49,534 bases of DNA. Origin: Opitutaceae bacterium (GTDB lineage Bacteria; Verrucomicrobiota; Verrucomicrobiia; Opitutales; Opitutaceae). Every line of letters begins with the position of its first letter. Within the stretch, counting starts at the first letter, position 1. The translations under genes were made by a program, and so were the position numbers. The stretch lies in NCBI GenBank assembly GCA_014879845.1, contig JACSRI010000110.1:1-49534 (forward strand), written 5' to 3'. The notes under the pieces were generated by a model that saw only the letters and a program-made list of their open reading frames with translations, did no database searches and was not told the DNA's origin. Positions 13,556-42,918 of the stretch are shown here, in pieces.

Positions 13556-14062
13556 ATGACATCGCTCAAGACCATCCTCCTTTCTCTCACCACCGCGGCC
13601 ACGCTCGGCTCGCTGGTGTTTGCCGTCGATTCGACCGCTCCGTCCACCGCCACCCCACCGGCCGCATCCTCTGACGGTCCGCGCAACCGCATCGAGCGGC
13701 TGATGAAGTTCGCCGCGTACAAGCTCGAACTCAGTGAGACTCAAGTCACGGCGCTCAAGGAAATCTTCACGCTGCACCAGCCCGAACTCCAGCCCCTGCT
13801 CGAGCGCGCCCGGACCGAGCGCGAAGAACTCCGGAGCCTCGTCGCCGCCGGCACGCTCGACGAGGCCGCGCTCGAAGCCCAGGCCGCGAAGATCGCCGAG
13901 ACGACCAAGGCACTCACCATCGCGAGCGCGCATCTTCGCTCCGACCTGCGGGCGGTCCTCACGCCCGAACAGGTCGACACGCTGATGCAGGCCCGCCGCC
14001 ACGGGGCCGCGCGCCGTCAGCATGGCCGCGAGGCCGTAGGCCACCGGATCAACGCGCCATAG
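13556..14062 (+). CDS. Spy/CpxP-like periplasmic protein (LTxxQ family)
   Basis: Small exported helical protein of 168 residues. Residues 1-23 form a signal peptide (TILLSLTTAATLGSLVFA). The mature part is a long amphipathic helical hairpin with two family-type repeats: LELSETQVTALKEI (about 56-69) and LTPEQVDTLMQARR (about 139-152), the latter matching the LTxxQ motif. CpxP/Spy/ZraP-type proteins act as periplasmic chaperones or envelope-stress modulators, so a similar role is plausible but not proven. It has its own start after the glnS terminator (CACC-ATG), and its 3' end overlaps the stop of the convergent aminotransferase gene by 14 bases. Confidence 0.7.
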   Translation: MTSLKTILLSLTTAATLGSLVFAVDSTAPSTATPPAASSDGPRNRIERLMKFAAYKLELSETQVTALKEIFTLHQPELQPLLERARTEREELRSLVAAGTLDEAALEAQAAKIAETTKALTIASAHLRSDLRAVLTPEQVDTLMQARRHGAARRQHGREAVGHRINAP

Positions 14063-15281
14063 CCGCGCCCACGACAGCCCCGAGGCGCGCGATCCCCTCG
14101 CCGATCTGCGCCTCGTTGGCATTGCTGAAGTTCAGGCGCAGCGTGTTGCGCCGCGGCTCGCCGATCCAGAAGGACTCGCCCGGCACGAAGGCAACCTTGG
14201 CTTTCATCGCCTCGTGCAGCAGTTGGAGTGAGTCCAGCCGGTCAGGCAGCGTCACCCAGAGAAACAGCCCGCCCTCCGGCCGCGTCCAGGTGCAGCCCTC
14301 GGGCATGTGCGTCGCCAGGGCAGCGAGCATGAGATCGCGCCGGCGACTGTAGACCTCACACAACCGCGCGACGTGCTGCTCGAGCGCACCCGGCACCTTC
14401 ACGCACTCGTAGGCGAGACGCTGCGTGAAGGTCGAGGTGTGCAGGTCGGTGGCCTGCTTCGCCGTGACCACCTTCTCGATGATCGAGCGCTCGGACGACA
14501 CGAACCACGCCACGCGCAGGCCGGGTGCGAGGATCTTGCTGGTGGTGCCCAGATACACCCAGGGCACATCCCCGGCCGAGGCCACGAGCGCCGGCTGCGG
14601 CATCCCTTCGAAACGCAGGCGGCCGTACGGATCATCCTCGACCACGAGCAGGCCGTGCTCCGCGGCGACCCGCATCACGCCCAGACGACGGTCGGCCGAG
14701 AGGCTCGTGCCGGTCGGGTTCTGGAAGTTGGGAATCAGATACAGGAACTTCGGCCGCCGCGGCGCGCGGTCGATCGCCTCACGCAGCGCCTCGGGCCGGA
14801 TGCCCTCGCTGTCGGACGCGACACCCACGATGTTCGCCTCGTACGCGCCGAAGGCCTGGAGGGCACCGAGGTAGGCGGGGTTTTCCGTGAGTACGACGTC
14901 GCCCGGGTCGAGCAGCACTTTGCCGAGCAGGTCGAGCCCCTGCTGCGAACCGTGCGTGATCACGACCCGCCCCGGATCAGCGGACAACCCGACCCAGTCA
15001 ACAAGGTGGCGCGTCACCCACTCGCGCAACGGACGGTGACCCTCGGTCGTGCTGTATTGCAGCGCGGCCGCCCCGTCGCCGCCGAGCACGACGGCCGCCG
15101 CCATCATGGCCGACTCGACGGGAAACAACTCCGGCGCCGGCAGGCCGCCGGCGAAGGAGATGATCTCCGGCGACTCCGTGACCTTGAGGATCTCGCGGAT
15201 CGCGCTGGGCTTCATCCCGGAGGTGCGCGTCGCGAAAGCGAGCGACGCGCGCCCTTGGCTCGGCGTGGTCGCGGGGCTCAT
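14049..15281 (-). CDS. PLP-dependent aminotransferase class I/II (2-aminoadipate/branched-chain type)
   Basis: Fold-type I PLP enzyme of 410 residues, transferring amino groups between an amino acid and a 2-oxo acid. Visible signatures are ITHGSQQGLDLLGKVLLD (cofactor phosphate region), NFQNPTGTSLS (the Asn-Pro-Thr-Gly motif), VEDDPYGRLRFEG (the Asp and Tyr contacting PLP), and the Schiff-base lysine in LGTTSKILAPGLRVAWF. The C-terminus has the EGGLFLWVTLP segment and an Arg for the substrate carboxylate (NTLRLNFSN). These features fit the LysN/ARO8-like and valine-pyruvate-type transaminases. The start at 15281 overlaps the stop of the preceding 68-codon ORF (ATGA), so translation is probably coupled. 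An attenuator-like leader lies upstream, so expression probably responds to amino-acid supply. Confidence 0.9.
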   Translation of the reverse strand: MSPATTPSQGRASLAFATRTSGMKPSAIREILKVTESPEIISFAGGLPAPELFPVESAMMAAAVVLGGDGAAALQYSTTEGHRPLREWVTRHLVDWVGLSADPGRVVITHGSQQGLDLLGKVLLDPGDVVLTENPAYLGALQAFGAYEANIVGVASDSEGIRPEALREAIDRAPRRPKFLYLIPNFQNPTGTSLSADRRLGVMRVAAEHGLLVVEDDPYGRLRFEGMPQPALVASAGDVPWVYLGTTSKILAPGLRVAWFVSSERSIIEKVVTAKQATDLHTSTFTQRLAYECVKVPGALEQHVARLCEVYSRRRDLMLAALATHMPEGCTWTRPEGGLFLWVTLPDRLDSLQLLHEAMKAKVAFVPGESFWIGEPRRNTLRLNFSNANEAQIGEGIARLGAVVGAAMAR

Positions 15282-15484
15282 GGCCGACCTCCCGCGCAGG
15301 GTGTGGACAGGGCGAGTCCCGCGCCCAGCCGGGCCGAGGCGACGATCTCGGCAACGGCGCCGAACTGGACCACGAGAAAGTCGTGGATCGGTTCGACGTG
15401 CGTCAGGCTCCCGCGCAGGTGCGCGAAGCCAAACTGCGGCGTGGCCAGATATTCCGTCCGGGTCTCGGGCGTGATGGTGTGCAT
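15278..15484 (-). CDS. Small unrecognised protein, translationally coupled to aminotransferase
   Basis: 68 codons starting at ATG 15484 in the context CCACCACC-ATG, which is the start context favoured across this window. They end in TGA overlapping the aminotransferase ATG. Codons end mostly in G or C like neighbouring genes. The product has no signal peptide. Its middle (FLVVQFGAVAEIVASA, about 36-51) could be a strand-helix pair. I recognise no family. The intrinsic terminator and leader peptide immediately upstream suggest that this is the first structural gene of the attenuated transcript. It could be a small accessory subunit, or simply an ORF that passes ribosomes to the aminotransferase start. 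Confidence 0.5.
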   Translation of the reverse strand: MHTITPETRTEYLATPQFGFAHLRGSLTHVEPIHDFLVVQFGAVAEIVASARLGAGLALSTPCAGGRP

Positions 15485-15535
15485 GGTGGTGGTGGTTTTC
15501 TATGAACCCCACCGGGACCGGGACCCGAGGTGCCA

Positions 15536-15571
15536 AACAAAAAGCCCCTCCGGTCTTGGCACCGGAGGGGC
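15536..15571 (-). terminator. Attenuator: perfect 11-bp hairpin plus U-run between leader peptide and aminotransferase operon
   Basis: Reading the minus strand, GCCCCTCCGGT (15571-15561) pairs perfectly with ACCGGAGGGGC (15554-15544) over a 6-base loop and runs into TTTTTGTTT (15543-15535). It starts 19 bases after the stop codon of the leader ORF and lies about 50 bases before the next ORF, so transcription of the aminotransferase genes must read through it. An alternative stem is visible: GGTGCC (about 15563-15558), overlapping the loop and the end of the 5' arm, can pair with GGCACC (about 15534-15529) downstream of the U-run. Confidence 0.85.
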
Positions 15572-15590
15572 GGGAAAGTCTTGGGTGACC

Positions 15591-15695
15591 TCACATCCCT
15601 CGCGGCGCGCGCGTAACGACGACGGCGGCGACGGCCGAAATCGCGGAGGCGATGACGGAGGTCGAGACGAGCGTGGTCGTGGCGTGGCGGGTCAT
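15591..15695 (-). CDS. Val/Ala/Thr/Ile-rich leader peptide (putative attenuation leader)
   Basis: 34 codons from ATG 15695 to TGA 15591. Composition: 6 Val (positions 10, 14, 22, 25-27), 7 Ala, 6 Thr (including T6-T8), 2 Ile, 4 Ser and 1 Leu. Residues 19-28 read ISAVAAVVVT. This resembles the E. coli ivbL and thrL leader peptides in size, composition and the terminal run of the regulatory residues, and it is followed at the correct distance by an intrinsic terminator and then by an aminotransferase operon. In the classical model, ribosome stalling at Val/Ile/Thr codons would favour readthrough. It could instead encode a short hydrophobic membrane peptide, but the downstream terminator argues for a leader. 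The TCAC-ATG context has no Shine-Dalgarno. Confidence 0.7.
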   Translation of the reverse strand: MTRHATTTLVSTSVIASAISAVAAVVVTRAPRGM

Positions 15696-15757
15696 GTGAG
15701 TAGTCGCAGGACGTCGGAGACCATCGACCGAGTCAAGCCCGACTTGAGCCGGCGGAC

Positions 15758-15821
15758 GTAGCGCAGGCTTCCAGCCTGCATCAGCCGGGCAGTTGCGATG
15801 CGGGCTGGAAGCCCGCGCTAC
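15758..15821. repeat. 25-bp inverted repeat (GTAGCGCAGGCTTCCAGCCTGCATC type)
   Basis: The left arm at 15758-15782 and the right arm at 15797-15821 are reverse complements at 23 of 25 positions, with a 14-base loop. Each arm contains its own smaller palindrome (CAGGCTTCCAGCCTG), so alternative cruciforms are possible. It sits between the divergent leader-peptide/aminotransferase unit and the HD-domain gene. It has the look of a dispersed intergenic element, but only one copy is in this window. Confidence 0.85.
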
Positions 15822-15868: not shown

Positions 15869-16465
15869 ATGGATTCCATCCCTGAACGCCTCGCCCGTCA
15901 GGTCGCCTTTCTCGTCGAGTGCGACCGGCTGAAGGAGATCTTTCGCCAGACGCTCAACACACAGAGCCGCCGTCAGGAAAACGATGCCGAGCACTCGTGG
16001 GCCCTCTGCCTCTTCGTCATCACGCTGGCCGAGCACAGCAACACGCCCGTCGACGTGCTGCGTATCCTGAAAATGCTGCTCATCCACGACCTCGTGGAAA
16101 TCGATGCCGGCGACACGTTCGCCTACGACACCGCGCGCATGGCCGACCAGCACGAGCGCGAGGCGCGGGCTGCAGACCGGATCTTCGGCCTGCTGCCGCC
16201 CGACCAGGGCGCGGAGTTTCGCGGGCTCTGGGACGAGTTCGAGGCCAAGCAGACGCCGGAGTCGAAGTTCGCAACGGCGGTCGACCGTTTCCAACCGATG
16301 CTGCTCAACTGCCTCACCGAGGGTGCCGCGTGGCGCCGCCACGGCGTGACGCAGCACCAGGTCGTCGCCCGCAACGCGCACGTCGCGCAAGGCTCGCAGG
16401 CGATGTGGGAGTTCATCGCCGCAAAGGTGAACGAAGCGGTGCAGGCGGGTCACCTCGCCACGTAG
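15869..16465 (+). CDS. HD-domain phosphohydrolase (YfbR/HDDC2-like)
   Basis: Metal-dependent phosphohydrolase of 198 residues. The HD metal site is visible as DAEHSW (residues 39-44), LLIHDLVEIDAGD (about 70-82, giving the His-Asp pair and the EID triad) and a distal Asp in AVDRFQPML (about 137-145). This pattern matches the HDDC2/YfbR group, whose characterised members remove phosphate from deoxyribonucleoside 5'-monophosphates. The exact substrate here is inferred. There is no signal peptide, so it is cytoplasmic. It is followed after 40 bases by a small membrane-anchored protein that may share its transcript. Confidence 0.82.
   Translation: MDSIPERLARQVAFLVECDRLKEIFRQTLNTQSRRQENDAEHSWALCLFVITLAEHSNTPVDVLRILKMLLIHDLVEIDAGDTFAYDTARMADQHEREARAADRIFGLLPPDQGAEFRGLWDEFEAKQTPESKFATAVDRFQPMLLNCLTEGAAWRRHGVTQHQVVARNAHVAQGSQAMWEFIAAKVNEAVQAGHLAT

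Positions 16466-42843: not shown

Positions 42844-42918
<75 letters not shown>

Follow-up and report, generated by a model that had tools for sequence, protein, structure and literature searches.

A predicted valine-sensing leader-peptide attenuator and its targets in Opitutaceae

Background

Attenuators of the ivbL kind depend on ribosome stalling, for which a run of valine codons is needed just upstream of the pairing arm. In Escherichia coli, ivbL precedes ilvB in the ilvBN operon (NC_000913.3) and displays a short leader with a valine run (MTTSMLNAKLLPTAPSAAVVVVRVVVVVGNAP) followed by a hairpin and a T-run; inspected by eye, GCGCCG in the leader tail was complementary to CGGCGC of the terminator. 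In Actinobacteria, and in Corynebacterium ilvB-II among them, two sources describe upstream ORFs rich in branched-chain residues with a terminator before ilvB (PMC1262725, PMC10272879). The actinobacterial ORFs extend into the candidate terminators, and how exactly regulation works was stated to be unclear. For C. glutamicum ilvBNC, a title cited in PMC10272879 reports a leader that is translated without a ribosome binding site. Titles and abstract starts of open-licence literature held nothing relevant on leader peptides in Verrucomicrobia or under Opitut-, in line with the remark of a first-pass annotation of the present locus that leader-peptide attenuation is little described in such bacteria; the main text of one of the quoted sources has no mention of Verrucomicrobi-, Opitut- or Akkermansia.

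Here we consider a locus of an Opitutaceae bacterium (Verrucomicrobiota), contained in contig JACSRI010000110.1 of assembly GCA_014879845.1; the whole stretch that was analysed, 49,534 nucleotides long, is called the window. Like E. coli ivbL, the locus displays a short leader with a valine run, a hairpin with a T-run and a leader tail complementary to the terminator. It differs from the E. coli system in its phylum, as it does from the actinobacterial ones, and from ivbL also in the APRG tail of most related leaders and in the genes behind, which are a small ORF and an aminotransferase gene in the window and ilvB at a second copy in the same genome (L167). These features indicate that classical leader-peptide attenuation occurs in Verrucomicrobiota, with new targets of the switch and with an antiterminator corrected from the one first proposed.

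Results and discussion

Collection of related loci

Related loci were gathered with a model of leader tail and terminator (R1), built from five loci in which the unit precedes an aminotransferase gene. R1 matched 67 of 100 genomes of the family at E <= 0.01, and 60 of them at full length and E <= 1.3e-6; outside the family, the sole full-length match at the latter threshold came from G234, a member of the same order (387 genomes of the phylum). As R1 is narrow and the search filters were strict, the spread of the switches is understated by these figures.

Sixty-seven loci were carried on: 65 from R1 searches, the window included, together with L036 and L037; five of the 67 had trained R1. Dropped before the counts were L172 (a strong match whose leader lacks APRG), L191 and L193-L199 (weaker, no credible leader), L161 and L163-L165 (weak), L159, L160, L162, L166, L192 and L200 (terminator only) and L129 (same place as L167), and weaker R1 matches were left out. 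The loci were divided according to what follows the leader. Type A, with ilvB, comprised 23 loci, including that of G234 (L156) and L131, which lies at a contig end and was placed by its leader. Type B, with small ORF and aminotransferase gene, comprised ten. Type C, without ilvB or aminotransferase match in the stretch behind, comprised 34. Among these are L157, where the leader is followed by ilvN, and L177, which is cut off by the end of its contig; both belong to the 67 loci and fall outside the 42 small ORFs considered below.

Leader ORF and valine codons

The features of the window are compiled in Table 1.

Table 1. Features of the attenuator locus in the window
Feature	Coordinates	Strand	Remarks
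-35-like element	15731..15736	-	TTGACT, 41 nt before leader start
Valine-rich leader peptide ORF	15591..15695	-	MTRHATTTLVSTSVIASAISAVAAVVVTRAPRGM; 34 codons and TGA; found in 67/67 aligned loci by a search requiring at least four Val in the last 30 residues
Predicted antiterminator, 5' arm	15597..15608	-	GCGCCGCGAGGG; APRG codons inside leader ORF; pairs with terminator 5' arm; covariation on alignment A4
Predicted antiterminator, 3' arm	15559..15571	-	GCCCCTCCGGTGC; terminator 5' arm and two loop bases
Intrinsic terminator hairpin	15544..15571	-	11-bp perfect stem, 6-nt loop
Terminator T-run	15536..15543	-	TTTTTGTT
Possible hairpin directly before small-ORF ATG	15488..15513	-	5' side G-rich; mean z -1.35, 26/42 loci below -1; weak
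Small ORF with HDFLV	15278..15484	-	68 codons; ATG at 15484, TGA 15280-15278; first gene behind the switch
PLP aminotransferase gene	14049..15281	-	410 aa; Pfam Aminotran_1_2; coding sequence from the ATG at 15281 to 14052, stop codon ending at 14049

The leader of the window contains VAAVVV, i.e. the four valines within six residues already pointed out by the first-pass annotation, but its three consecutive threonines, then placed at the start of the ORF, are residues 6 to 8. Valine accounted for 21.9% of residues over the 67 leaders. Counted from the C-terminus, positions 8 to 19 contained 52, 43, 76, 61, 66, 64, 57, 57, 54, 36, 30 and 25% valine, at each position more than isoleucine and leucine together (21, 0, 1, 10, 3, 7, 12, 10, 12, 21, 24 and 16%). 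Across the APRG region (positions 2 to 7) valine fell to 0-4%, so that the enrichment is situated directly upstream of the arm. From this codon enrichment we infer valine as the amino acid signal and predict a response to it; the valine part of the Val/Ala/Thr/Ile leader originally proposed is thus retained, while a mixed signal is not, since valine exceeded isoleucine plus leucine at every one of these positions.

Two mutually exclusive helices

The perfect 11-bp hairpin and its T-run were found in the window 19 nt past the leader, exactly as first annotated. Alone, the terminator folds at -26.5 kcal/mol. On alignment A4 (67 loci) 98.8% of its cells were paired, two-sided changes affected six of 12 pairs, and covariation reached 0.170 against 0.089 (sd 0.006) in shuffles, none of 500 being as high.

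A competing helix had been sought by the first-pass annotation between GGTGCC and GGCACC. Both are present in the window, the former in the loop and the latter just downstream, but a pair of this kind was present in only two of the 67 related loci, and the pairing was rejected. The competing helix is instead predicted between the APRG codons and the 5' arm of the terminator. It would be exclusive with the terminator, and its own 5' arm falls within the leader ORF. The stretch folds alone at -26.6 kcal/mol in the window, where a joint fold of antiterminator and terminator stretches yields the terminator. Over the 67 loci, 89.1% of antiterminator cells were paired versus 37-63% in slid controls; for both helices, pairs were counted on an alignment that had been fitted to the model of the terminator, by matches to which the loci themselves were chosen, five of them being its training set. 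Covariation was 0.170 versus 0.127 (sd 0.007) in shuffles (0/500 as high), and two-sided changes were encountered in six of 12 pairs (1/500 shuffles as high), kinship among the loci inflating the significance of such shuffle tests. Against the helix, the control slid by +2 displayed 13 cells with two-sided change where the antiterminator displayed 12, and the loop-side G-C pair of the antiterminator was unpaired in 40 of the 67 rows.

Arms also appeared matched to their own partners. The mean binding of a 5' arm within its own sequence was -23.0 kcal/mol, versus -20.9 kcal/mol with the arms of other sequences; the own arm was better than the mean of the others in 49 of 67 loci and worse in 18 (Wilcoxon p 1e-5, uncorrected for kinship). 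The arms of L190, L186, L156, L184 and L188 are unlike the rest, yet matched to their own partner. The natural variants of the whole family allow terminator and antiterminator to be distinguished by compensatory change.

An ordinary terminator of a short transcript behind a chance GC-rich ORF is hardly credible as an account of the locus. GC-rich noise commonly contains Val, Ala and Arg codons, and the earlier claim rested on one sequence; against this, 67 loci share the leader ORF, the valine run and the second helix, and no upstream gene on the same strand was seen that would need a terminator, the neighbour at 15869 being divergent.

Promoter-like box and proposed mechanism

In 58 of the 67 loci, TTGA[CT] preceded the leader start by 36-50 nt; a control stretch placed another 80 nt upstream contained it in three of 67. 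Such a box would put the start site close to the leader start codon. No clear -10 box was recognised in the window. At the attenuator no Rfam family, be it T-box, riboswitch or any other element, reached its gathering score, the only one to do so in the window being a tRNA at 42847-42918. Rfam anti-hemB (L117, L147) and suhB (window) matched below gathering score only and were taken as chance.

The leader ORF, the terminator and the helix that excludes it are read from sequence, as are their conservation together and their linkage to targets. On these grounds the element is very probably an attenuator of the ivbL kind, in which ribosomes on the leader control transcription in response to valine; the leader-peptide attenuator recognised by the first-pass annotation is thus supported. 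Transcription would start just upstream of the leader ORF. With plentiful valyl-tRNA, the ribosome would pass the valine codons up to the stop and cover the APRG codons, upon which the terminator (15571-15544) would form and the RNA would end near 15536. With valyl-tRNA in short supply, the ribosome would presumably stall in the valine run, leaving the APRG codons (15608-15597) free to pair with the 5' arm of the terminator; no terminator would then form, and RNA polymerase would continue through the small ORF to the aminotransferase gene that overlaps it.

Attenuators preceding ilvB

The first-pass annotation had the attenuator serve an aminotransferase and not ilvB. The link to the aminotransferase gene stands, but ilvB is a target as well, both in the own genome, where another contig carries the same element as the window in the order leader-ilvB-ilvN (L167), and elsewhere. 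Type A leaders were present in 22 of the 100 family genomes, which are precisely the 22 that encode a complete or almost complete IlvB with at least 69% identity, and lay directly before ilvB in 21 of them, the locus of G105 being split over contigs. The aminotransferase is a minority target of this family of switches. The IlvB of L167 matched PRK08155 best (811 bits, below the cut-off of 870) and passed the general TIGR00118 cut-off, while its IlvN matched PRK08178 best (95 bits, below the cut-off of 128).

Other IlvB copies were differently equipped. Those of G103 and G075, at 73-74% identity, lack the N-terminal part and had no strong leader match. IlvB at 55-56% identity was preceded by a different valine-rich leader, e.g. 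NVVVVVVVGWTASARG, missed by R1, in all six loci examined (L227, L228, L230-L233); a seventh such genome, G076, lies outside these six. Most other IlvB matches were at 42-48% identity, and leaders there were sought with R1 only. The IlvB of the own genome is 56% identical to that of E. coli, versus 46% to the second IlvB of the same genome, and by eye the E. coli ivbL terminator is close to that of the loci with 55-56% IlvB. Common descent with E. coli ivbL is possible, but GC-rich terminators with such an appearance are common.

Types A and C shared no genome where 6.8 would be expected (22 and 31 of 100, the 31 including G114; P 8e-5, uncorrected for kinship), and they may be forms of one locus. 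Types A and B co-occurred in two genomes, that of the window and G033. On a tree of the second IlvB (76 genomes, one row, L276_G092, on a very long branch) both types were scattered, with a minimum of 12 changes for valine-attenuated ilvB (type A and 55% loci) and of 15 for the combination of leader and small ORF (G004 included), so that neither corresponds to a single clade. Independent pairs from this tree gave no significant result in a sign test (median p 0.5). An earlier version of the tree was discarded, as 20 rows on a far branch were taken for misread frames.

Two loci stood apart. In G004 (L157) ilvN lies directly behind the leader and the only ilvB match of the genome is at 43%, which has the appearance of an ilvBN operon after loss of ilvB. 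L172, the second strong R1 match of G005, has a valine-rich leader ending LVDVVVVAVVSN, a similar terminator and then, by eye, an MFS-transporter-like ORF, which would be one more type of target, encountered in a single genome.

The small ORF

A small ORF followed the leader in all 42 assessable loci (32 of type C, 10 of type B). Its length varied from 62 to 111 codons. The shared motif is HDFLVxNxRPDL, with H in 37, D in 41, F in 33 and L in 42 of 42, a loose form of it having been part of the search, and its codons displayed silent changes. Of 15 pairs analysed by a counting method (own script), 12 had a finite dS and gave dN/dS values of 0.21-0.62; dS was saturated in the other three. With all 12 measurable pairs below 1, the small ORF appears to evolve under purifying selection. 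Comparison with NCBIfam, Pfam and PDB gave nothing of note.

The small ORF begins where ilvB would be expected to start, and it is preceded by GGCC, CCGG and GGAGCGGGC, which by eye recur before ilvB in several type A loci. Collinear matches to the IlvB N-terminus were detected in eight of 42 small ORFs versus four of 2100 shuffles, and matches to the IlvB HNFLV segment in ten of 42 versus 24 of 2100. The mean z for the N-terminus was +1.56 (42 small ORFs), versus -0.09 to -0.26 for four control segments. All p-values on the resemblance to IlvB, those of the profile comparisons below included, are optimistic, the tests having been devised after the resemblance was seen by eye, and since p was below 0.05 in only 11 of 42 for the N-terminus and 14 of 42 for the motif segment, most small ORFs taken singly do not display it. 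Single profile scores were weak (best E 0.029) and a full-family profile comparison (36 rows) was not significant (P 0.084); a hand-picked subgroup of six rows gave P 0.0015, with a score of 25.7 versus at most 21.2 in 40 column shuffles. Descent from IlvB is thus likely, on these comparisons, for part of the family. For the copy in the window they gave some likeness around the HDFLV motif (z 2.4, p 0.015) but none over the N-terminal part (z 0.2).

A decaying duplicate of an ivbL-ilvBN region, in which the small ORF would be a remnant of ilvB and the switch out of use, would account for this starting position, for the resemblance of part of the family to the IlvB N-terminus and for G004, whose leader is followed by ilvN with no close ilvB. 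It is nonetheless improbable, as dozens of loci have conserved the two helices as well as the promoter-like box, the HDFL-like motif is present in 42 of 42 and dN/dS stays below 1 wherever measurable.

In the window (15485-15518) and in 42 related loci, a G-rich stretch resembling a Shine-Dalgarno sequence lies about 20-27 nt upstream of the ATG of the small ORF. The possible hairpin listed in Table 1 might bring this stretch and the ATG together, or mask them.

Aminotransferase gene

As first annotated, the hairpin is followed by the small ORF and a PLP aminotransferase gene; stop and start overlap (ATGA), which suggests translational coupling. The best PDB sequences were 1x0m, 3aov, 1wst and 2egy, and by sequence the protein came closest to aminotransferases of the multi-substrate, kynurenine and 2-aminoadipate types, its closest solved relatives being the multiple substrate aminotransferase (1wst) and the 2-aminoadipate transaminase (2egy) of P. 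horikoshii. None of the curated NCBIfam cut-offs was reached among the models shown. The substrate is perhaps branched-chain or a broad range of 2-oxo acids. The enzyme need not act on valine, because the own genome encodes two class IV aminotransferases, one of which (L115) exceeds the ilvE_I cut-off (250 versus 245.55 bits); so it would be an addition to the pathway or part of another one.

The unit preceded the aminotransferase gene in all ten loci at 57% identity or more (window, L117-L120, L122, L125, L142, L036, L037) and in all eight genomes of the 100-genome sample with an orthologue of at least 58%. Comparison of upstream regions, suggested by the first-pass annotation as a check, showed leader ORF and hairpin kept before close orthologues; the compensatory changes are those read from all 67 loci. 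In the family sample no R1 match was found beside the homologues at 47-55% (12 genomes) and 36-37% (four), i.e. 0 of 16, which counts against the main reading. The unit was likewise absent beside the distant homologues L010-L016.

Loci without a biosynthetic gene

Leader, terminator and small ORF stood alone, with no ilvB or aminotransferase match in the approximately 1.4-2.2 kb checked behind, in 30 of the 100 family genomes; in one further type C genome, G114, the contig ends before a small ORF is visible. These loci pose the question of why an amino-acid attenuator is kept with no biosynthetic gene behind it. A speculative reading, rather improbable as a whole, is that a valine attenuator was detached from acetolactate synthase in Opitutaceae and kept, and that in about one third of the sampled genomes it governs only a protein of 62-111 residues, perhaps derived from an internally deleted ilvB (N-terminal residues and HNFLV segment), which might act as a regulator under valine starvation, for instance by binding the remaining acetolactate synthase; the aminotransferase gene would have been added behind in some lineages, including that of the window. 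The small HDFLV protein offers a specific candidate for a regulator of branched-chain amino-acid synthesis that lacks annotation.

For peTrpL of S. meliloti the amino acid is tryptophan and not valine. This attenuator leader peptide was reported to act in trans (PMC7298713), and the product of an attenuator may be important by itself, as the stand-alone loci here suggest. Together with these 30 genomes, it speaks for a working attenuator with terminated leader RNA, leader peptide or small HDFLV protein in trans as its main output and the aminotransferase gene as a later passenger. We consider this rather unlikely: the small protein has no family or PDB match and no known target or partner, in the window the aminotransferase gene and the small ORF overlap, and every close orthologue of that gene came with the leader.

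Upstream neighbourhood

The divergent neighbour on the opposite strand (15869-16465, +) encodes an HD-domain protein. Between it and the leader, at 15758-15821, the window contains two inverted copies of a palindromic repeat, GCAGGCTGGAAGCCTGCGCTAC. With at most two mismatches, the core of this repeat had 62 matches in the own genome versus none for a reversed control, and it is REP/BIME-like.
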